53,622 nucleotides of DNA from Candidatus Mailhella merdavium. Its GTDB lineage: Bacteria > Desulfobacterota > Desulfovibrionia > Desulfovibrionales > Desulfovibrionaceae. This document shows, piece by piece, positions 4,188 through 29,541 of the stretch. The first letter of the stretch is position 1; each line of letters begins with the position of its first letter. The position numbers and the translations under genes were made by a program. The stretch is taken from NCBI GenBank assembly GCA_019119045.1, contig DWXS01000063.1, positions 1 to 53,622 on the forward strand, given 5' to 3'. The notes beneath the pieces were generated by a model. That model did not search any database, was not told where the DNA came from, and saw nothing but the letters and a program-made list of their open reading frames with translations.

Positions 4188-5369
4188 ATGGCTGAACTTG
4201 TACATGGCGATTCCGTCATTTATCTGGACAATAATGCCACAACCAGAGTTGCTCCTGAAGTTGTGGATGTGATGCTTCCTCTCTTTTCCGATTTGTACGG
4301 CAATGCGTCCAGCATGCACACCTTCGGCGGTCAGATGATTCATCTGGTCAATGATGCCAGAGCCAGTGTCGCCCGTCTTCTCGGGGCGCAGCCCGAGGAA
4401 ATAGTGTTCACCTCCTGCGGTACGGAAAGCGACAGCACCGCCATATTTTCAGCTGTGGAAACGCAGCCGGAAAAACGCCATTTCATTACCACGCGCGTGG
4501 AACATCCTGCGGTTATCGCGCTGGGCAATCTGCTGGAAAAACGCGGTTATGAGGTGACCTGGCTGGGGGTGGATTCAAAGGGAAGACTCAATCTCGACGA
4601 ACTGGCCCGCTCCATCCGCAAGGACACGGCGCTGGTGTCCATCATGTATGCCAATAATGAAACGGGAACGGTTTTCCCCATCGACGATATTGCCCGCATA
4701 GTCAAGGAACGGGGCGCATTGCTGCATGTAGATGCCGTACAGGCTGTGGGTAAGGAACCTATCGATCTGTCGAAAACCCCTATTGATTTTCTGGCATTGT
4801 CCGGACATAAACTCCATGCCCCCAAAGGTATCGGCGTTCTTTATATCCGGAAGGGCACCCGTTTTCGTCCTTTCCTGCGCGGTGGACATCAGGAGCGCGG
4901 ACGTCGTGCCGGGACGGAAAATGTTCCGTATATCGTCGGCCTCGGCAAGGCCTGCGAACTTGCCGGATCGGCCATGGCTCAGGAACGGACACAGGTTGCC
5001 GCTCTGCGCGATAAGCTGGAAAAGGGACTGCTTGCCCAAATTTCGAACGCTATTGTCAACGGTGATGTGGAACACAGGCTGCCCAATACGTCCAGCATTG
5101 CCTTTGAATCCGTGGAAGGTGAGGCCATACTGCTCATGCTGAACGAATTCGGCATCTGTGCCAGCTCCGGTTCTGCCTGTACGTCCGGCAGTCTCGAACC
5201 GTCGCATGTGCTGCGTGCCATGGGGGTACCGTTTACCTATGCGCACGGCTCCATACGTTTCAGTCTGTCCCGTTATACGACGGAAGCGGAAATAGATAAG
5301 GTTCTGGAAGTCATGCCCGGAGTCATCAAGACGCTGCGTGAGATTTCTCCGTTTACGCGGCGAGGTTAG
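4188..5369 (+). CDS. nifS: Cysteine desulfurase NifS
   Basis: PLP enzyme that removes sulfur from cysteine for Fe-S cluster building. It is 393 residues, family length. The N-terminal IYLDNNATTRVAPEV segment, the PLP-binding lysine in SGHKLHAPKGIG (near residue 205) and the sulfur-accepting cysteine in SSGSACTSGS (near residue 327) are all present. It starts with ATG behind GGAGG and follows the nifU stop closely, so the two form one unit. A strong terminator follows at 5394-5430. Confidence 0.96.
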   Translation: MAELVHGDSVIYLDNNATTRVAPEVVDVMLPLFSDLYGNASSMHTFGGQMIHLVNDARASVARLLGAQPEEIVFTSCGTESDSTAIFSAVETQPEKRHFITTRVEHPAVIALGNLLEKRGYEVTWLGVDSKGRLNLDELARSIRKDTALVSIMYANNETGTVFPIDDIARIVKERGALLHVDAVQAVGKEPIDLSKTPIDFLALSGHKLHAPKGIGVLYIRKGTRFRPFLRGGHQERGRRAGTENVPYIVGLGKACELAGSAMAQERTQVAALRDKLEKGLLAQISNAIVNGDVEHRLPNTSSIAFESVEGEAILLMLNEFGICASSGSACTSGSLEPSHVLRAMGVPFTYAHGSIRFSLSRYTTEAEIDKVLEVMPGVIKTLREISPFTRRG

Positions 5370-5393
5370 ATAGTAATTCTTTTCAGAATGTTC

Positions 5394-5430
5394 AAAAAAG
5401 GAGCGGAAAACAGTTTTCCGCTCCTTTTTT
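5394..5430 (+). terminator. Rho-independent terminator after nifS
   Basis: A 17-base arm (AAAAAAGGAGCGGAAAA, 5394-5410) is followed by a 3-base loop and its exact complement ending in a T-run. The A-tract and T-tract on opposite sides would let it work in both directions. Confidence 0.92.
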
Positions 5431-6040
5431 GTTATTAATTGAAAATTCATTCAGGTACGAATTTCGGGAAAGATTTATGCTTCAGTCGCTAAATTTTTTT
5501 CTGACTGCGGTAAACAGTATATATTATCATATGTTGCAGGAATGTTTTAGTTAATATGGAATTGAGGGAAACAGAAATTGAAATAAATAATTAATTAAAA
5601 TATCTTTACCACTATGTAATAACTATATTTGATAGTTGTTATATTTATCCGTAGTGACGACATAAGATATCTTAGTGTATGATAAAATATTGTTAATTTT
5701 ATCCAAAAAGGCAAGGCAATCTGATACATACGGCGGCAAGAAATAAAGATGTATTTTTATACTTTTCCATACCGGCAATTCAGCGTAAGAACGGTATTTT
5801 TTATAATATGCCGGAGCCTGTAAAGGCTTCAGCCGTAATTATGAATCTTTTTAGAATGTTTGTGCGGAGTGATGACAGGCTTGTTCGCCTCTCAAGAAAC
5901 TCAAGCAAGGCATTACTGTCGTACCCTTTGTCTGGCGACATTTTTTCGTGCAGCCCGTCGTTCGGATTTGTGCTTTTCGAAAAAGTTTGTCTGGCGGTTT
6001 TAGCCCTGAGATTTTAATGTGCGCATAGGTTTTTTATAGG
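5431..6040. other. AT-rich intergenic region without a clear gene
   Basis: About 600 bases, markedly AT-rich to about 5770, between nifS and the alcohol dehydrogenase. No ORF here looks like a protein; a 69-codon ORF at 5808-6017 has no recognisable motif or ribosome-binding site. A TATAAT at 5802-5807 has only a weak -35 (TTCAGC) 17 bases upstream. Because a plus-strand terminator with no plus-strand gene lies at 6219-6256, an unannotated plus-strand RNA starting in this stretch is possible. Confidence 0.4.
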
Positions 6041-20490: not shown

Positions 20491-21297
20491 CTATTCTTCC
20501 ACCAGGAACAGACCTGAAAAACGTGTACTCAGGTTACGCATGGCCTCGCGGGCTTCCTGTCGGGTACGGAACGGCCCCGCCTGTACAATCTGTCGATTGC
20601 CGGAAGCGCGGATTCTGCCGCTGATCCCCAGATCCTTAAGGATTGCCGCAGCATTTTGACTGTTTGCAGAGGAGGAAAATGCGCCGACCTGAACATAAAT
20701 GCGTGCAAGCGCACGTCCTGCCTTTTCCAGTTTATCCATGGAAGCGTTGACTTTTTCCAAGGTATCCATGGCCTGGCGGGATTCTTCAGAATTGCTCAGG
20801 GTACGTCTGCTTGTCTTGGGTGTGATGGTCTCGATCCGTACACGGGCCGTACCGCTCTGGATCATCCCGATTTCCTCGGCGGCCTTTTTGGAAAGATCGA
20901 TGATGCGATCCTTGGAAAAGGGGCCGCGGTCATTGATGCGTACTGTGGTACTGCGGCCGTTTTCGAGGTTGGTCACCCGCACCATGGTGTCGAAGGGCAG
21001 TTCCTTATGTGCGGCTGTCAGCAGATTGGTATTGAAGCGTTCCCCGTTGGCAGTTTTTTTCCCATGGAAACCGGGGCCGTACCAGGAGGCTATGCCCGTC
21101 TGTGAGAAGTTGTCGGCCGATTCAAGGGGGTAATATGTCTTTCCCCGTATGGTATAGGACTTGCTGCGCGGCACATTGTTCTCAGAGGATATGCCGTAAT
21201 CTCCACCGTGTTCATAGGGCCGAACCGATGCACAGCCTGCACTCAGGACAAACAGACACAGAAGCAGGAAAAGAACGGAATACCTTGTCCGGATCAT
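20491..21297 (-). CDS. rlpA: RlpA-family septal/rare lipoprotein with SPOR domain
   Basis: About 268 residues. Lipoprotein signal peptide ending in the lipobox LSAGC (near residue 19). The RlpA double-psi barrel is near 65-165 (GIASWYGPGFHGKKTANGE, LPFDTMVRVTNLENGRS, VRINDRGPF). The C-terminal SPOR peptidoglycan-binding domain is near 195-268 (YVQVGAFSSSANSQ). RlpA proteins sit in the outer membrane at division sites and some cleave denuded glycan strands. Start ATG 21297 overlaps the azlD stop (ATGA), so translation is coupled to the azl genes. Confidence 0.94.
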   Translation of the reverse strand: MIRTRYSVLFLLLCLFVLSAGCASVRPYEHGGDYGISSENNVPRSKSYTIRGKTYYPLESADNFSQTGIASWYGPGFHGKKTANGERFNTNLLTAAHKELPFDTMVRVTNLENGRSTTVRINDRGPFSKDRIIDLSKKAAEEIGMIQSGTARVRIETITPKTSRRTLSNSEESRQAMDTLEKVNASMDKLEKAGRALARIYVQVGAFSSSANSQNAAAILKDLGISGRIRASGNRQIVQAGPFRTRQEAREAMRNLSTRFSGLFLVEE

Positions 21298-21620
21298 GCC
21301 GCACCCCAGCGAAGCAGGGCCACGGCCCCCATACCGACGGCAAGCGTCGCAAACAGGCTTTTTGTCTTCCATGCAGCGAGAACGGCGGGAAAGGCAGCCA
21401 GAAGAAAGGTATTGTCCAGCCCGAGAGAGAGTCTGCCGTCAACGAGAAATATTTCTGGGGCAACCAGTGAGGCAAGAATGGCGGCGGGAACGAATCCGAG
21501 CCAGATACGGGCCGCGTCAGGCAGAGGTCTGCCCGCGAGGAGGGTCATGGGCAGCACGCGGGGCAGAAATGTACCCAGAATCATACCGCCCGTACACAGG
21601 GCCAGTTCCAGATTGGTCAT
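21294..21620 (-). CDS. azlD: AzlD, small subunit of branched-chain amino acid exporter
   Basis: 108 residues with four hydrophobic segments; typical AzlD start (MTNLELALCTGGMILGTFLPRVLP). It works with AzlC to export branched-chain or related amino acids. It overlaps azlC by four bases upstream and rlpA by four bases downstream. The open frame extends to 21830, but that part is the azlC coding region in another frame. Confidence 0.9.
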   Translation of the reverse strand: MTNLELALCTGGMILGTFLPRVLPMTLLAGRPLPDAARIWLGFVPAAILASLVAPEIFLVDGRLSLGLDNTFLLAAFPAVLAAWKTKSLFATLAVGMGAVALLRWGAA

Positions 21621-22402
21621 GCGGAATCCTTTTCCGGAGGTGCCGCAACATGAGTGTTCCGGCAGGAAGGAGCTTTTGGGGCGGTTCTGTGTCTGCTCAG
21701 AAAAAGACCGATGGTTGCGGCGATTATGGTTGCGAGGATGATACTGCCTCGTCCCGCTCCGGCCATGGTGAAAAGAAGAGAGAGCAGAGCTGCCGAAATT
21801 GCCGTGGCGAGTTGCAGTCTGTCGCCACACAGGGGGAGAAGCAGAGCAAGAAACATGGCCGGCAGGGCAAAATCAAGTCCATACGGCCGGACGTCGCCTA
21901 TCAGAGAGCCGGAAAGCCCTCCCAGAGCGGTACCTATCACCCATCCGGACTGAGCCGTCAGGTTGCAGGAAAAAAGCCTCCATCCGTTGCATACGGCGCC
22001 GTTACGGAAATCTGCCATCTGCACGGCAAAAAGCTCGTCGGTGACGCCTGCTGCATATAAGGCCCGGGGCGCAGGAGGGAGGGATTGTACATGGGGAGTC
22101 AGCGCGGCGGACATCAGAATATGGCGCAGGTTAACCATGAGATTGGCCAGAGAAACGGCGGCAATGGATGCTCCTGTGCCGATCATGCCCGCAGCGATGA
22201 ACTGTCCGGCTCCGGCGAAAACCAGAACGGACATGGTTACGGCCCATATGGCCGGAACGCCGTTTTTGACCGCGAGTACCCCATAGGCGATTCCCAGCGG
22301 CACATAGCCGATGAAGATCGGCAATCCCATATGGATACCGGTCAGAATTTCTGATTTGACAGAAGGAAATGTCGGATGGTCAGGACGGCGTTGGGAAGAC
22401 AT
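21617..22402 (-). CDS. azlC: AzlC, large subunit of branched-chain amino acid exporter
   Basis: About 261 residues, multi-spanning. Family segments are GLPIFIGYVPLGIAYGVLA, FAGAGQFIAAGMI, NLRHILMSAAL and GVTDELFAV. ATG 22402 comes seven bases after the cheX stop; the longer ATG at 22456 would lie inside cheX. It overlaps azlD by ATGA, as is normal for this pair. Confidence 0.92.
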   Translation of the reverse strand: MSSQRRPDHPTFPSVKSEILTGIHMGLPIFIGYVPLGIAYGVLAVKNGVPAIWAVTMSVLVFAGAGQFIAAGMIGTGASIAAVSLANLMVNLRHILMSAALTPHVQSLPPAPRALYAAGVTDELFAVQMADFRNGAVCNGWRLFSCNLTAQSGWVIGTALGGLSGSLIGDVRPYGLDFALPAMFLALLLPLCGDRLQLATAISAALLSLLFTMAGAGRGSIILATIIAATIGLFLSRHRTAPKAPSCRNTHVAAPPEKDSA

Positions 22403-22409
22403 GGCGAAC

Positions 22410-22871
22410 TTATTGGAAACAGAATTCCAGTGTGAAAGAGCCGTGTTCTGTTTCAAAGGGAATGGCGATGGTCGTCACCTGGCCGGGGAAGGACAGGGAA
22501 TGGTTTGCTCCAAAGATGATGGAGGGCGTGGAGCCTTGCAGGGGCAGACCCATTTCGCTCAGTATGGCCCGGGCCTGACCGGAAATCATGTTGGTGATTT
22601 CTCCGACCGCATCGCGTGTGTCGGCCATGATATCTTCTATGGCATCGCCCAGCATGCCCTTGACCAGAGCAATGGCGCAGGACTGGGAAAACGAAAGAGC
22701 AATGGCGCCGCTTTTGCATCCGGTAATACCCACGATCGCGGATACGTCACCCTGCGCTTTGTCCGTTTTTTTGACATATGGTTTGCCGGGAACGGGAGAT
22801 AACCCCGTCATGGAGGTAAGCACATTGATGGTGGCCTGCACAAAGGGCTTGGCAAGTGCTACGTCGCTCAT
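22410..22871 (-). CDS. cheX: CheX-type chemotaxis phosphatase
   Basis: 153 residues. The CheX/CheC family motif is present as EITNMISGQAR (Glu and Asn of the ExxN phosphatase motif near residues 93-96), with the family GDVSAIVGITG and ALSFS strands. Such proteins remove phosphate from CheY-P. ATG 22871 has GGAG nine bases upstream. There are no other chemotaxis genes here; it heads a tight cluster with azlCD and rlpA. Confidence 0.88.
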   Translation of the reverse strand: MSDVALAKPFVQATINVLTSMTGLSPVPGKPYVKKTDKAQGDVSAIVGITGCKSGAIALSFSQSCAIALVKGMLGDAIEDIMADTRDAVGEITNMISGQARAILSEMGLPLQGSTPSIIFGANHSLSFPGQVTTIAIPFETEHGSFTLEFCFQ

Positions 22872-23139
22872 GACCGAAAGCTCCGGAAAGAACATTGTTT
22901 ACCCGTGAGTCCTGCGCATTTTCCTGAAATTTGCGATGTTCGCGGGTATAAAGCATATTACTAACATGAACGGAATTGGTCGTCCAGCACGGCATTTCCG
23001 GTTCTACATCTCAATAGGAGTCTGCGTATCAGGGGAATTATTCCGAGTTTTTTTACCGCGCGGGGGCAGGGGGAATCTTGCCTTGTGTCAAAGCTTGCGG
23101 CAGAATATGAGGATACGCGACGGAAGAAGGAGGCGTTTC

Positions 23140-23721
23140 ATGGACTTGCGTAAAACCCGCGAACAGCTCGGCCGCATACGGGTATATTACCTCAAGGGAG
23201 ATACGTTGCGGGCGCTGGCGTCTGCGGTTATGGCGTTGCGTGATCTGTCGCAGATGAGCAATCTGTCTACGGAGATGCGCAGCATGCTGCGTGAGGGTAT
23301 CGGCTATCTTGCTCGTGACGAGGAATTGAAACGTCACCTGGATCGTCCTCTGGCGTATCAGCCGGGGCAGGAACGGGCTTTGTTCGTTCAGCTCGGAAAG
23401 GCTTATAAGGAAATGGCGTCTCAGGCCGGAATGGAGAGCCGCGAAGAGACTTTTGCCCGTAAGCAGAAACTGGATAAGGCCCTGATTGTAGGGCAGAAGC
23501 TCGTGGCTCAGGGCAAGTTTTCCGAAGCGGAAGAGTCCTTCCGGGAAGCCGTGTCCTGTTATCGGGACGAACACCGTCTTTTCCAGATGATTGCGCAGAG
23601 CTTCATTGATGCCGGGCAGCCCCGAAGGGCTATCGACTACCTGCGCAAGGCCGTGGAGGCTGAGCCGGATAACGAAAGTGCGAAGGCTCTGCTGGAGAAA
23701 GTCAGCGCCATAAAGGACTGA
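23140..23721 (+). CDS. TPR-containing protein of unknown role
   Basis: 193 residues, no signal peptide or membrane segment. Two clear tetratricopeptide-like repeats lie at about 120-190 (ALIVGQKLVAQGKFSEAEESFREAV; AIDYLRKAVEAEPDNESAKALLEKV). The N-terminal half is helical (LGRIRVYYLKGDTLRALASAVMAL). ATG 23140 has GAAGGAGG upstream. It is divergent from cheX. A protein-interaction role is likely; the partner is unknown. Confidence 0.82.
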   Translation: MDLRKTREQLGRIRVYYLKGDTLRALASAVMALRDLSQMSNLSTEMRSMLREGIGYLARDEELKRHLDRPLAYQPGQERALFVQLGKAYKEMASQAGMESREETFARKQKLDKALIVGQKLVAQGKFSEAEESFREAVSCYRDEHRLFQMIAQSFIDAGQPRRAIDYLRKAVEAEPDNESAKALLEKVSAIKD

Positions 23722-24185
23722 ATGTTCCCCTGCATCAGAGACGCGCGTCATTCCGGAGGACGAATTCTGCGATATTCCGCCAGACAGAATTTTTCTGCGG
23801 CGGACAGAAACTCCGGGAAGAATATTCCATTCAATCTCCGCCTCTGTTCAGATCGGCTCAAACGGCAAGAATTCTCCGGAATTTTACTTGCAACATATGA
23901 ACAGACGATATGATCCCGTCTTTCGCCATGGGCAGCGGATTCGGCAGAACGCCGGAATCTCCCTGCCTGCGGCAGACAGACAGCACGGGCATGTCGGTGA
24001 GCCATATGCGCAGATAATACGCTAAGACTTCGTTCGTCTTCTGTCTGGTCTGTGTGCGGATTCCCGGCAGGTCTGGAGGATGCGTCAGAAGATGACGAAA
24101 AGCGGATTCGTGCGTAATCCTTCTTCAGGGAGAGGCCTGCCGGGGCGTCGGATTTCGTTCGTTCCGCCCAGAATGGGGAGAACTT
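23722..24185. other. Convergent intergenic region, no gene recognised
   Basis: About 460 bases between the TPR gene (+) and the PII-like gene (-). Several short dyads occur (AATTCTCCGGAATT near 23869-23882; AAGAC/GTCTT near 24025-24041), but none has a U-tract. Short ORFs lack ribosome-binding sites and protein-like composition. Confidence 0.4.
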
Positions 24186-24887
24186 CTACACTTTTCCAAG
24201 AGGGAAGAAATCGTCCACAGCAGAGCTGAAGGCTATTCCCATACCTGGTCGTTTCAGACATTCGGCGTCGCGCACGGCGTCGCGTACTGCATCGGCCTTG
24301 TCGCTCGGCACCAGCATAATCAGCACTTCTTTTTCCGGGAACAGGGTCAGTCCGAAGAAACGGGCATCCTCTCCGCTGGCCGTTCCGCGCGCCTTGAGTA
24401 TCGTTCCTCCGGGCGCCCCTGCCTTACGGGCTGCGGCCATGGCGTCGTCGGCGAATCCGGCATTGACAATAAGGCAAACAAGTTCATAAGGCGACTGATG
24501 TTGTTCTCTCATGGAAGGCTCCGGCAGGGAGTGTGTTGATTGGGAGTCCGGCGCAGGATTCGCTTCGTTTCGTTTGGGGCGCAGAACGTCGTCAAGATTA
24601 AGGCTGAAGGATATGCCGACGCTTGCGCGGGAATGGGCGGAGGTTGCGCGCCATACTGAAGCTACGGAATCCGTCTGATCCTTTGTGCCGAGAATTATTA
24701 GAATGTCCTTTTCCTGATCGGCAAGGCAGAGCAGCCCCAGCAGGCCCCCGGAAGCCGTTCCGCGTCCGGGCAGAATCGTGCCTCCCTTTGCTCCGGCGTC
24801 TCTGGCAAGGCGCATCAGACGTTCTCCCTGTCCGTGCCCGGAAATGGCGCAAATCAGTTTATCGGAAAGTTGGCCGGCGGGGTTCAT
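24186..24887 (-). CDS. Tandem PII-like regulatory protein
   Basis: 233 residues made of two PII-like (ferredoxin-fold) domains in a row: about 8-105 and 130-230. Each has the same core: GGTILPGRGTASG in the first, GGTILKARGTASG in the second, followed by a strand (ILIILGTKDQ / VLIMLVPSDK) and a C-terminal strand (VGISFSLNLDDVL / MGIAFSSAVDDFF). The linker (105-128) is polar and Pro/Ser-rich. PII-family proteins bind nucleotides and gate partner proteins, often transporters. The start ATG 24887 has GGAGG upstream and overlaps the stop of the DUF1538 membrane protein by four bases, so the two are made together. Ligands are unknown. Confidence 0.85.
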   Translation of the reverse strand: MNPAGQLSDKLICAISGHGQGERLMRLARDAGAKGGTILPGRGTASGGLLGLLCLADQEKDILIILGTKDQTDSVASVWRATSAHSRASVGISFSLNLDDVLRPKRNEANPAPDSQSTHSLPEPSMREQHQSPYELVCLIVNAGFADDAMAAARKAGAPGGTILKARGTASGEDARFFGLTLFPEKEVLIMLVPSDKADAVRDAVRDAECLKRPGMGIAFSSAVDDFFPLGKV

Positions 24888-26383
24888 GCCTTGTCCTCCG
24901 GAGCATGTTGGCTGTGCCTGGAAAGAGCCAGAGTTTTGTTTTCGGCACGGGTTACAAGTATTCCCAGCGCCTGTATGGCAATAAGTGGCGTCATGGCAAT
25001 GAGCGCAATGACGCCGAAAGCGTCAAGAATGGGGTTGCCGCCCAGAGCATTTGAGGCCCCGAGCGCAAAGGCCAGAATAAAGGTGGAGGCCATGGGGCCG
25101 GAGGCCACGCCTCCCGAGTCGAATGCTATCGCCGTAAACAGCGGGGGGCAGAAGCGCATGAGACCGAAACTCAGCAGATAGCCGGGAATGAGAAAATACC
25201 ACAGAGAAATGCCGTTCAATATCCGGAACATGGCCATGCCTACGGCGCAGGCCACACCGAGGGAAAGCGCGGCCAGCATCAGACTGCGCCTGATGCTTCC
25301 GCCGGAGATTTCTTCCACCTGCACGGTCAGAACCCATACGGCAGGTTCAGCACAGACGACCAGCGCGCCGAACAGGACTCCGGCCGAGATAAACAGGGCC
25401 GAGGGCTGCGTTCCCGCAATCAGCGCGCCCAGCTCACGCCCGGCAGGCATGAATCCGCCCTTGACGCCGAGAAAGAACAGCACAAGTCCGAGAAAGGTAT
25501 AGACAAGACCCATGATCAGACGCAGCAGCTGTTGTGACGGCATACGCACCAGCGTCAGCTGAAACACTGCGAAGAGCAGAAACAGCGGGCCGAGAGCTAC
25601 AAGCACTTCATGCAGAACTTCAGGGACAAGATTCAGGAAAGCTGCGAGCAGAGAGAGGCTTTCTCCCGCAGACTCCACGCTTTCCGCAGGGAGTTCTCCT
25701 GTGCCGGATGAGAGCATCCCCATGAGAAGGACCGCCATGATCGGACCGATGGACGCCAGCCCGATGAAACCGAAGCTGTCGTTTTCCGCATTACCTCCAC
25801 GCACGGCGGCAACGCCCATGCCCAGAGCCAGTATGAAGGGAACCGTCATGGGGCCGGTGGTTGCTCCTCCTGCGTCGAAGCCCACGCCGAGGAATTCCGG
25901 AGAGGAGAGCGCGGCACAGACAAAAAGCAGCGCGTAGAAGAGAAGCAGCAGTACGCGCAGAGAGAACTGAAAAATTACGCGCAGCAATGCGAGACTGACA
26001 AAAAGACCGACGCCTGCCGCGATCATGAACACCAGATTCCTTGCGGAAATGGAAGGAGCCACGTCCATGACCTGGGCGGCCAGTACCTGTACGTCGGGTT
26101 CCGCCACGGTGATGATGAAACCGATGATGAAGCCTGCGCCCAGCAGCAGGGGGAGGTTGCGTTTATGCACGAGTGCAGAACCGGCTCTCTGTCCCATGGG
26201 CAGGACGCCGATATCGGCTCCTACCAGGAAGAAGGACAGTCCGATGATGATCAGAACGCCCCCCAGCAGAAAGGGAGGAAATAATGCTCCCAGCGGCGCG
26301 ACGGCAAGATGAAGAAGGCTGACCAGCGCCATGATGGGCAGGACGGAAATGGCGGATTCCCGGAGTTTTTCCAGAAAAATCAT
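24884..26383 (-). CDS. DUF1538 membrane protein, internally duplicated
   Basis: 499 residues, about twelve hydrophobic segments. It is two DUF1538 halves fused: the first has TVAEPDVQVLAAQV and FDAGGATTGPMTVPFILALGMG; the second has CAEPAVWVLTVQV and FDSGGVASGPMASTFILAFALG, each followed by a Gly-Gly-Asn turn (RGGN / LGGN). A two-gene DUF1538 system (UmpAB) has, to my recollection, been described as a sodium/proton antiporter in Halomonas; if so this would be a fused version. The acidic and Gly-rich repeats inside the membrane suggest ion transport (inference). It is translationally coupled to a tandem PII-like protein. The upstream AT-rich region has a small dyad TACATAAATGTA at 26432-26443. 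Confidence 0.87.
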   Translation of the reverse strand: MIFLEKLRESAISVLPIMALVSLLHLAVAPLGALFPPFLLGGVLIIIGLSFFLVGADIGVLPMGQRAGSALVHKRNLPLLLGAGFIIGFIITVAEPDVQVLAAQVMDVAPSISARNLVFMIAAGVGLFVSLALLRVIFQFSLRVLLLLFYALLFVCAALSSPEFLGVGFDAGGATTGPMTVPFILALGMGVAAVRGGNAENDSFGFIGLASIGPIMAVLLMGMLSSGTGELPAESVESAGESLSLLAAFLNLVPEVLHEVLVALGPLFLLFAVFQLTLVRMPSQQLLRLIMGLVYTFLGLVLFFLGVKGGFMPAGRELGALIAGTQPSALFISAGVLFGALVVCAEPAVWVLTVQVEEISGGSIRRSLMLAALSLGVACAVGMAMFRILNGISLWYFLIPGYLLSFGLMRFCPPLFTAIAFDSGGVASGPMASTFILAFALGASNALGGNPILDAFGVIALIAMTPLIAIQALGILVTRAENKTLALSRHSQHAPEDKA

Positions 26384-26631
26384 GGAGATTCCGTTTGCTT
26401 GTCGAGGTTATGATACTGAATGTTTATTTTTTACATAAATGTATATTTTGAGCAAGTATTTTCTGTATCTTGCATCAGTCTCAGCAGCTATATATCGACA
26501 GTGTCGACAGGTACGGAAGAACAGTATTTCCCGAGCAGGCAGTCAGAAAAAAGAAATTTGTTCGTATCATTGTATGAATGATTGATATTCCGGCTGTATA
26601 ATAAGTACGGAAGCTGTACTATATGAGAAAT

Positions 26632-27513
26632 TCATTTTGACTTATGTTTATACTGGCCGCCCGCAATGTAGAAACTGTTCTGAACTGCAAAGAGAGCCTG
26701 AGGATCGCGTGAGGCGACAAGGTCTTCAAGATAGCGCAAGGCAAAATTGCTGGCGATGGTGATGACCACTTCCTTCGATTCGTGCGTATAGGCCCCGAAG
26801 GCCGGAACAATGGTCGCTCTTCCTCCGTTGGACATGATTGCCTGGCAGATTTCCTGTCCTTTTCCCGTGATGATGAATACCGTCTTGTGCCGGTTGGAGA
26901 GGCGTTGGACAAAATCCGTGGTATTGGCGGAAATGAAGACCAGAATGCCGGATACTATCACCATGTCCAGCGGGATGGTGGTGACGCTGGTAAGAAAGAG
27001 CATGATATTGAAGGCAAAGGAACATTGCCCGATAGGAAAATTCCAGCGTTTGTTCAGATAGACGCTGACCATGTCCAGACCGCCGCTGGACCCCTGGGAA
27101 CGGAGCATGATGCCGATTCCTATGCCTACAAGGACTCCGGCCAGAATGGCGGCATAAAAATCGTTTTCCACCGGTATGCGCACGGTATCCAGCAAAGCAC
27201 CCCAGGCGGAGGTGGCGAGCGTGCCGTAGAGGCTGTACCACACGAAACGGCGGCTGACCTTGAACCAGCCGAAAAGAAGCAGCGGCAGATTAAGCAGAAT
27301 ATTCCAGATGGGAGCGGTCAGAAGCCCTGTGCCGTACCACGTCAGCAGGCTCAACCCCAGCACTCCTCCGGTAAGGAACCCGTGATGCGCGGCAACAGCC
27401 TGTGATCCGAAAGCCATGAAGCCGGCTCCGACGGTGAGCAGCCAGATATTCCACAGCGGATGCAGGGAAAGTTTGCGGGAGGAAGGCAGTTTTCCTGTGT
27501 ACAGCTTGGGCAT
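26632..27513 (-). CDS. YitT-family membrane protein
   Basis: 293 residues. The N-terminal membrane domain has about five spans (GGVLGLSLLTWYGTG, GVLVGIGIGIMLRSQGSSGG) and the C-terminal soluble DUF2179 domain is near 215-285 (KTVFIITGKGQEICQAIM, YTHESKEVVITI). The Gly-Gly-X-Asp segment SSGGLDMVSVYLNK is typical. Function of the family is unsettled; some act in amino acid or anion transport. It lies 104 bases after the TauE-type gene on the same strand. Confidence 0.88.
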   Translation of the reverse strand: MPKLYTGKLPSSRKLSLHPLWNIWLLTVGAGFMAFGSQAVAAHHGFLTGGVLGLSLLTWYGTGLLTAPIWNILLNLPLLLFGWFKVSRRFVWYSLYGTLATSAWGALLDTVRIPVENDFYAAILAGVLVGIGIGIMLRSQGSSGGLDMVSVYLNKRWNFPIGQCSFAFNIMLFLTSVTTIPLDMVIVSGILVFISANTTDFVQRLSNRHKTVFIITGKGQEICQAIMSNGGRATIVPAFGAYTHESKEVVITIASNFALRYLEDLVASRDPQALFAVQNSFYIAGGQYKHKSK

Positions 27514-27617
27514 GGGACTCTCTGCGAGGGGCAGGGCGGACGTTTGCCGTCTGAAAGGTTACGGTTCGGGAAAGGAAGGGAACGGACTCCGCCGGACGGG
27601 CGGCGGGGAGAGTTTGC

Positions 27618-28418
27618 TCAGATGATGCCCCACAGCATTCTGGCGGCAGTAACGTACAGGAAAAGGGCAAAGACCTTGCGCAGGGTGCTTACGGGCAGGG
27701 CATGTGCCAGCTTTGCCCCCAGAGGGGCGAAAAAGATACTGGTACAGGCAATGCCCAGCGTGGCCGTCACACTGATGTACCCGAGCGACCAGGCCGGGAG
27801 TCCGGGCTGATTCCAGCCCGTCCAGACATAGCCGATGCTGCCTGCTATGGCGATGGGCCAGGAGAGAGCGGATGAAGTCCCGACGGCCTTGTGGATTTCT
27901 ACGCCGCACCAGCGCAGAAAGGGGACGGACAGGCTGCCGCCGCCAAGCCCGACCAGGCTGGAGACGCCGCCTATGAGAAAGCCCGCCAGACTGAGTCCGC
28001 CCATACCGGGCGCGCTGTGTCGCGCCCGCGGGTAGAAATCCAGCAGCATCTGCGTTGCCACGACAAGCAGGAAACAGACGAAGAAAATTTTGAGTCCCGT
28101 ACCCGACATGCCTGCCGCGAGGAAGGAGCCGCCAAGCGTACCCAGCGCAATGGCCGGAGCCATGCCCCGGACATAATTCCACAGCACCGATTTACGCCGG
28201 GCATGTGCCCGGGAGCTGGATATTGCAGTGAACAGAATGCTGGACAGGGAGGTGCCCAGAGCCACGTGCATGGCCAGCTCCGGCGACATATCCCCCTGTA
28301 TGGAAAAGATGAGGGTGAGAAGCGGGACGACGACGAGCCCGCCGCCTATGCCGAGCAGTCCGGCAAAAAATCCGGCGGCCGCGCCGGTACAGATGTACAG
28401 GAAGTAAATTTGCAGCAT
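27618..28418 (-). CDS. TauE/SafE-family anion exporter
   Basis: 266 residues, about eight hydrophobic segments, with the duplicated family signature: AAGFFAGLLGIGGGLVVVPLL at the N-terminus and IGGVSSLVGLGGGSLSVPFL near residue 155. The family exports sulfite, sulfoacetate, organosulfur compounds or other anions. The substrate cannot be told from sequence; in a sulfur-metabolising anaerobe a sulfur oxyanion is reasonable (inference). Confidence 0.88.
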   Translation of the reverse strand: MLQIYFLYICTGAAAGFFAGLLGIGGGLVVVPLLTLIFSIQGDMSPELAMHVALGTSLSSILFTAISSSRAHARRKSVLWNYVRGMAPAIALGTLGGSFLAAGMSGTGLKIFFVCFLLVVATQMLLDFYPRARHSAPGMGGLSLAGFLIGGVSSLVGLGGGSLSVPFLRWCGVEIHKAVGTSSALSWPIAIAGSIGYVWTGWNQPGLPAWSLGYISVTATLGIACTSIFFAPLGAKLAHALPVSTLRKVFALFLYVTAARMLWGII

Positions 28419-28518
28419 GATGACCTGCAGTTCTTGCAGTGGGAGAATGGAACCCGAGCGAGTCCGGGAGCGAATCCGGCGAGGGCGCGACGGATTCGCC
28501 GCGCCCCGCGGTCGGTCG

Positions 28519-29541
28519 TCAGGCCAGAATATGCGGACTGACGGAGGCGATGTCTGGGCATCCTGTGAGAGTCATTGCGGCAGTGAGTCCGGCGCGCAGA
28601 TCTTCGACATAGGCAGCAACCCCTTCGCGCAGACCGCCTACGGCGGCGACGCTGAACGGGCGTCCTACGAGGACGGCGCGCGCGCCGAGCGCGAGCATTT
28701 TGAGGACGTCCACGCCGTCACGGACGCCGCCGTCCGCGAGGACTTCCACCCTGCCGCGTACTGTTGCGGCAATACGGGGCAGCACTTCTGCCGTTCCCGG
28801 AGTGTGATCGAGAACGCGCCCTCCATGGTTGGATACGACAATGGCGTCGACTCCGGCGTCGGCGGCAATGCGCGCTTCGTCTTCCGTCATGATGCCCTTG
28901 ATCATGAACTTGCAGCCAGCTCCGTGTACATGCGCGGTAATGGCGGCGAGTTCTTCCGGGGTCTTCGGGGAAACGGGGCGTCCCTGTTTGCGCAGGGTAA
29001 TGAGTCCGGCTGCATCCACATCCATACCGATGACGGGGCAACCCGTGGCTGCTGCACTGTCGAGTTTGCGGTTCAGCTCTTCACCGTCCCAGGGCTTGAT
29101 GAAGGGAATGCCGTGCCCGCCGGCCTTCCGGATGGCTGCAAATGCGCTGTCGGGAATGATGTCGCCCACGCCGTCTCCGCCGCAGCCGATGATTCCGGCA
29201 TCCTTGCAACCGAGCATGACGGCGTCGGCATAGTCCGCTTCCGTCACGGGCGCGCCGCCCATATTGAAGGATACGCCTCCTATGGGCGCGGCCAGCACGG
29301 GCAGGGACAGCTTCAGTCCCAGTACGCTCTGTTCAAGTTCCGGCTGCACGGCTCCGTGCAGACAGCGCATGGCAAGGCGTATTCCCCGCAGGGCTTCGAT
29401 GTTGGCCCGGAAGGAAGCTCCCGTACCCAGACCGCCCATTCCCGGGACTTCTCCCGAACATGCGCGTCCGTCACATACCGGACAAACCCGGCAATATCCC
29501 TTCATCCGTTCTCTGGCCTGTTGCCTGATGGCGGCGTCCAT
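28519..29541 (-). CDS. FMN-dependent alpha-hydroxy-acid oxidoreductase with Cys-rich N-terminus
   Basis: 340 residues, TIM barrel. The active-site His-Gly-Gly-Arg is present (VVSNHGGRVLDHTPGT, near residue 237), as are the FMN-phosphate segments VLADGGVRDGVDVLKMLALG and GARAVLVGRPF. Unusually, residues 16-31 read YCRVCPVCDGRACSGE, a C-x2-C-x2-C-x4-C cluster suggesting a metal or Fe-S site. ATG 29541 has AAGGAG upstream; the frame is open to 29955 but overlaps purE there. It lies 55 bases after purE. Likely substrates are lactate, glycolate or related acids; as the organism looks anaerobic, a dehydrogenase is likelier than an oxygen-using oxidase. Confidence 0.86.
   Translation of the reverse strand: MDAAIRQQARERMKGYCRVCPVCDGRACSGEVPGMGGLGTGASFRANIEALRGIRLAMRCLHGAVQPELEQSVLGLKLSLPVLAAPIGGVSFNMGGAPVTEADYADAVMLGCKDAGIIGCGGDGVGDIIPDSAFAAIRKAGGHGIPFIKPWDGEELNRKLDSAAATGCPVIGMDVDAAGLITLRKQGRPVSPKTPEELAAITAHVHGAGCKFMIKGIMTEDEARIAADAGVDAIVVSNHGGRVLDHTPGTAEVLPRIAATVRGRVEVLADGGVRDGVDVLKMLALGARAVLVGRPFSVAAVGGLREGVAAYVEDLRAGLTAAMTLTGCPDIASVSPHILA

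Follow-up and report, generated by a model that had tools for sequence, protein, structure and literature searches.

At positions 24186-26383 of the window, i.e. the whole analysed stretch of 53,622 nucleotides, two overlapping genes are encoded on the minus strand, with open reading frames at 26383-24884 and 24887-24186, exactly where an earlier note made from the sequence alone had placed them. The features of the pair are as follows:

24884..26383, minus strand: fused UmpAB-type antiporter-like protein of 499 aa, with two DUF1538 halves (PF07556, E 5.2e-128)
24186..24887, minus strand: tandem PII-like protein of 233 aa (PF00543), with an ATGA overlap with the transporter gene
24585..24860, minus strand: N-terminal PII-like domain (A3 profile, 9.2e-16), with its own conserved loop of the GRGTA...LGL type (group consensus)
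24198..24488, minus strand: C-terminal PII-like domain (A3 profile, 2.6e-36, with the window sequence itself as one row of that profile), with a conserved ARGT..FFG..PEKE loop

The two duplications described in the earlier note are both present in single chains: the membrane protein matches PF07556 in two stretches (425 bits, against a gathering cut-off of 22.6), and the regulator matches PF00543 in two stretches (29.7 bits, against a cut-off of 25). The stop of the transporter gene and the start of the PII gene share the four bases ATGA, again as described, and the two PII motifs quoted there are found in the translation. An overlap of this size is given by the closest start in 53 of the 90 short fused loci with adjacent PII. 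DUF1538 occurs in one place only in the genome of the window, and the closest named relative of the transporter, at 85% identity, belongs to a Mailhella genome.

Riboswitch control of the pair was rejected based on Rfam scans, as window 22000-29000 gave no match at the gathering score and 14 relatives gave tRNA and SRP RNA only, none adjoining DUF1538. A promoter scan found none, and terminator-like sites were fewer than the shuffled mean. The upstream neighbour at 26632-27513 of the window (minus strand) encodes a membrane protein of the YitT kind whose C-terminus carries DUF2179, a domain of the same Pfam clan as PII. An AzlC/AzlD pair and a TauE/SafE-type transporter also lie near (window 21294-22456 and 27618-28418).

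The DUF1538 halves of the transporter map to 24956-25582 and 25712-26332 (1.9e-62 and 2.6e-67), with boundaries at approximately residues 16-226 and 266-478 as determined using a profile built for this analysis. The N-terminal half is best matched by the UmpA profile and the C-terminal half by the UmpB profile, at 162.5 and 132 bits versus equivalog cut-offs of 490 and 500 (NF041627 and NF041628). Judged from these matches, the window transporter is a relative of UmpAB and not a proven equivalog, and with scores this far under the cut-offs the ions of the window protein may differ. In Halomonas zhaodongensis, the DUF1538 pair UmpAB is described as a two-component Na+(Li+,K+)/H+ antiporter in which both subunits are required and behave as a hetero-dimer; UmpA and UmpB sufficed in E. 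coli without other factors, and PII is absent from the main text of that paper (PMC5484666). Homologs of UmpAB are cited as salt adaptations in papers on cable bacteria (PMC10030654, PMC12093952). The window protein shares the Pfam family and the organization into two homologous halves, both needed in Halomonas, but differs from UmpAB in being fused in one chain, in its scores far under the equivalog cut-offs and in the PII gene that follows it. Antiport by the window protein would be expected by analogy with the Halomonas pair. Hydropathy analysis revealed 14 hydrophobic segments, seven per half, and the alternation of positive charges under the positive-inside rule, a crude measure, suggests that the two halves are inverted relative to each other, in which case they would not present equal cytosolic faces. 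Searches of solved structures with the transporter returned nothing useful (one chain, Nb6, at E 0.7, and none in a second search).

The 233-aa PII-like protein is assigned to no NCBIfam family, and a single-sequence search with it among solved structures retrieved none up to E 10. A3, the profile of the C-domain family, recovers solved PII proteins (best 9p1x at 6.6e-9, and also GlnB/GlnK), and the protein thus belongs to the PII superfamily by sequence homology. Canonical PII proteins carry a TGKxGDG motif in the B-loop and RTGE in the C-loop. An alignment to the GlnK encoded in this genome shows neither the C-loop nor the B-loop TGK in either domain, a departure from canonical GlnB/GlnK, with the position of the PEKE lysine kept in 97% of 89 C domains. 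As the canonical nucleotide loops are lost, a canonical response to ATP/2-oxoglutarate is doubtful. In each domain the T-loop stretch is conserved more strongly than the remainder (p 0.004 and 5e-5), and the T-loops of the N and C domains differ consistently, each being conserved. This pattern fits specialisation of the two domains, for which the earlier note had suggested different ligands, but points to no ligand. A canonical PII gene (5.7e-16) is located on another contig of the genome, adjoining an Amt-like open reading frame recognised by eye (L153), and the tandem PII is therefore an extra, divergent protein and not the nitrogen PII.

Adjacency of the two families was evaluated separately for each set of loci found via DUF1538. 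Adjacent PII was present at 14 of 17 fetched Desulfobacterota loci, the window being excluded, and at 76 of 79 Spirochaetota loci among the matches listed. The same arrangement was detected in 16 of 16 genome contig records, in all 7 fetched plasmid loci (of 9 records matched), in all 4 fetched phage-collection loci (of 7 records matched), and in 5 of the 6 later regions L209-L214, the miss being at a contig end. In these counts L090 appears twice, with two DUF1538 genes sharing one PII, and loci L168-L207, which were chosen by PII, have no bearing on the rate. Of the Desulfobacterota misses, L059 is a weak match that was considered spurious, L061 lies at the end of a contig and L063 is a fragment of a gene, while those of Spirochaetota (L075, L085 and L130) fall in genomes G605 and G591, both of which encode tandem PII elsewhere. 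Adjacency is thus conserved across lineages and extends to several phyla, those beyond Desulfobacterota and Spirochaetota being represented by plasmid and phage-collection records. On plasmids of Paraclostridium, Vescimonas, Peptoclostridium, Chelativorans and Methylocystis, neighbouring genes are labelled by NCBI as 'DUF1538 domain-containing protein' and 'P-II family nitrogen regulator'. Two scans of viral contigs revealed no relatives. We note two unusual arrangements: at L090:3486-7284 (minus strand) two fused DUF1538 genes flank a single tandem PII gene, and at L134:2435-8706 two divergent DUF1538-PII operons stand back to back, with three versus two PII domains.

Missing co-occurrence of the two families across genomes had been named in the earlier note as grounds for abandoning the coupling, yet they do co-occur: with PII counted at E 1e-12 using A3, which is built from 22 PII domains, 297 sampled genomes of the order of the window contain PII in 106, DUF1538 in 106 and both in 102, with PII only in 4, DUF1538 only in 4 and neither in 187. 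Among the matches listed for 296 Spirochaetota genomes, DUF1538 is found in 84, PII in 71 and both in 68, with PII only in 3, DUF1538 only in 16 and neither in 209. The associated Fisher p values, 4.9e-69 for the order and 2.8e-47 for Spirochaetota, ignore kinship, as the genomes are related and the counts are not independent. Eight of the 16 DUF1538-only spirochaetes correspond to fetched loci with a three-domain PII (L131, L132, L135-L138, L144 and L147), and five more have an adjacent PII with two to three domains detected (L209-L213), leaving G367 (under the family cut-off), G427 and G514 (contig end). Since PII is present at most of these loci, the DUF1538-only list largely reflects profile sensitivity. 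In one of the three PII-only spirochaetes the PII is located at a contig start (L207). Collectively, the genomic data strongly support the coupling of DUF1538 and PII. Five genomes gave weak PII matches that were set aside as PII genes of nif clusters, as judged by eye from their neighbours; these form a separate clade in the tree.

PII proteins of the same family recur beside unrelated antiporters. Each of the four genomes with PII only in the order sample has it directly beside NhaB (PF06450; L157, L192, L193 and L208, the NhaB of the latter assigned by similarity to that of L157). Two further NhaB-PII loci (L194 and L195) are found in genomes also carrying DUF1538-PII, and at L216 DUF1538, tandem PII and NhaB follow in a row, NhaB being identified by Pfam profile. 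The NhaB-PII loci are seven in number, with tandem PII in six and a single domain in one. At a single locus, L155, tandem PII precedes an NhaC-type antiporter (PF03553). In a PII tree based on few columns, C domains from PIIs linked to NhaB and NhaC, among the focus rows listed, group with DUF1538-linked ones. NhaB itself occurs in 54 of 179 family genomes, 15 with and 35 without a PII match and 4 outside the order sample, and it follows that NhaB usually does without this PII. Divergently oriented NhaB adjoins a split DUF1538-PII operon in two genomes (L174:157-4293 and G742:C1:469365-473503), which again hints at a common role in sodium/pH. At L157 an AcrB-type pump is next to PII on the opposite strand.

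These partners bear on what is transported. We consider it unlikely that DUF1538 here moves another solute, e.g. a metal ion, ammonium or an organic anion, with PII reporting the nitrogen/carbon state. The low UmpA/UmpB match agrees with that proposal, as do a related PII-like gene that follows a CitMHS_2 transporter (L196) and the ammonium, nitrate, urea and bicarbonate transporters given as PII-controlled in a review table (PMC10710835). However, Na+(Li+,K+)/H+ antiport is the activity of the DUF1538 pair that has been characterised (PMC5484666), the partner swaps go to NhaB and an NhaC-type antiporter, the canonical nucleotide loops are lost, and the genome encodes its nitrogen PII at another place.

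Alternatively, PII could sense the product or state of the antiporter and relay a signal to other targets rather than mainly gating, with GlnK sequestered by AmtB as a model. Such a role would account for the retention of tandem PII without DUF1538 in two spirochaete genomes (L205 and L206), where no recognisable transporter gene is beside it, and for PII unlinked to DUF1538 in two others (L154 and L155). In L205 and L206 the tandem PII is near a nucleosidase-like and a biotin-ligase-like gene, as recognised by eye, and two neighbour families that look like these recur at 21-22 DUF1538-PII loci, suggesting transporter loss there. A relay is distinctly unlikely in our view, as direct control of the partner agrees better with the gene overlap, with a fusion of the two proteins (L093, see below) and with the occurrence of PII beside different antiporters.

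The number of PII domains varies with the architecture of the transporter. The census comprises 146 loci with both DUF1538 halves, seven more that lack a full half or are spurious being left out, and includes hand reassignment of L044 (a broken fused gene) and L176 (where the second PII is canonical and beside an Amt-like gene). Among 32 loci with split subunits, 29 have one PII domain, including L062 with a broken first subunit, and three, all of one genus, have two. The 95 short fused loci have two PII domains in 90 cases, one in a single case at a contig end, three in L093 and no adjacent PII in three, while long fused loci have three PII domains in 17 cases and two in two (L134, and L145, which is cut by the contig end). 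Three short fused loci outside the census (L209-L211) have three PII domains with transporter frames of 498-582 aa, and the length of the long form was consequently dropped as the cause of three domains. In the tree only two independent pairs connect domain number to architecture, and with so few changes the association is descriptive only.

It had been proposed from the matching duplications that the two PII domains contact one membrane half each. The survey of single versus fused genes bore out the coupling of the families but contradicted a simple one-to-one rule for PII domains and halves. Split subunits with one domain (29/32) and short fused chains with two (90/95) follow the rule; nevertheless the transporter always has two halves, while the PII domains number one, two or three. 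Tandem PII occurs at the three split loci of one genus, three domains occur at the 17 long fused loci, L093 and L209-L211, NhaB takes tandem PII in 6/7 loci, the two independent pairs in the tree are too few for a test, and the halves look inverted by the crude charge pattern. We hence regard matched contacts as very unlikely.

At L093, DUF1538-DUF1538-PII is a natural fusion with a PII-like domain at the transporter C-terminus and a tandem PII gene upstream. The fusion was called by a PII profile built in this work and by A3 (62 bits), with Pfam at E 0.001 reporting DUF1538 only. The fusion and the degenerate-looking tandem PII occupy L093:3148-5016 and 4989-5660 (minus strand), and another PII C-domain of this genome is located where a contig begins (L156). 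Seeming DUF1538-PII fusions in several Mailhella loci, with open frames of approximately 450-850 aa, were rejected, as DUF1538 and PII are read in different frames there.

Based on these data we propose that the locus probably encodes a cation/proton antiporter of the UmpAB kind, with its subunits fused, together with its own two-domain PII-like regulator that controls it. The conserved T-loops of the regulator would most likely mediate its docking to the antiporter on the cytosolic side, and the docked PII would then open or shut the antiporter upon binding of a small ligand or in response to the ion/energy state. Precedents for such gating are the action of GlnK on AmtB and of SbtB on SbtA, and it is by analogy with these that we infer contact, direction of control and ligand. 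Beyond the window, one may tentatively envisage a PII family specialised for Na+/H+ antiporters, passed among unrelated UmpAB, NhaB and NhaC-type transporters and having switched between one, two and three domains per chain, where a three-domain chain could represent a whole trimer serving a transporter that is not a trimer; we rate this somewhat below an even prospect.

The arrangement resembles GlnK-AmtB in the coupling of a PII gene with a membrane partner and in the T-loop as the likely contact, but the PII here is a divergent tandem without canonical B- and C-loops and its partner is antiporter-like. Similarly, SbtB-SbtA combines a dedicated PII-like protein with a secondary transporter; however, the CGPEGC R-loop of SbtB (PMC10117731) was not found in the translation of the 233-aa protein. 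A partial precedent is provided by the PII-NG gene, which is in an operon with CzcABC in Geobacter (PMC7726332), i.e. a PII-family gene with a proton/cation antiporter, yet CzcABC serves in metal efflux, and Pfam tests of seven neighbouring ORFs in the window detected no pump of that type. We found no description of PII paired with UmpAB or NhaB in the open-access literature searched. The locus had been put forward as an undescribed system, which agrees with that search, but the two genes are already annotated next to each other by NCBI. Likewise, PII-gated DUF1538 transport had been called uncharacterised, and we found none described, although DUF1538 has a characterised pair in UmpAB (PMC5484666). 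New is the class of transporter that serves as PII partner, the pairing of PII with transporters itself being known. PII proteins are known sensors of nitrogen and carbon that act on the uptake of ammonium, nitrate, urea and bicarbonate. If the proposed control is correct, metabolic or second-messenger sensing would be tied to pH/sodium balance in many anaerobes and other bacteria, and an antiporter family for which we found no described regulation would be controlled at the level of activity. The idea lends itself to direct tests, given PII forms with one, two or three domains, partners of the NhaB and NhaC type and a naturally occurring fusion.

Related single-domain PII-like genes are also found beside non-antiporters or nothing clear (L158-L162, the second gene of L179, and L198-L200). 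Those of L158, L159, L161 and L162, away from DUF1538 and with a CIVQRG start, resemble the middle domain of three-domain PIIs. At L179:8691-10473 (plus strand) the single-domain PII-like gene is located just upstream of a CNNM/CorC-type protein, possibly another ion-transport pairing.
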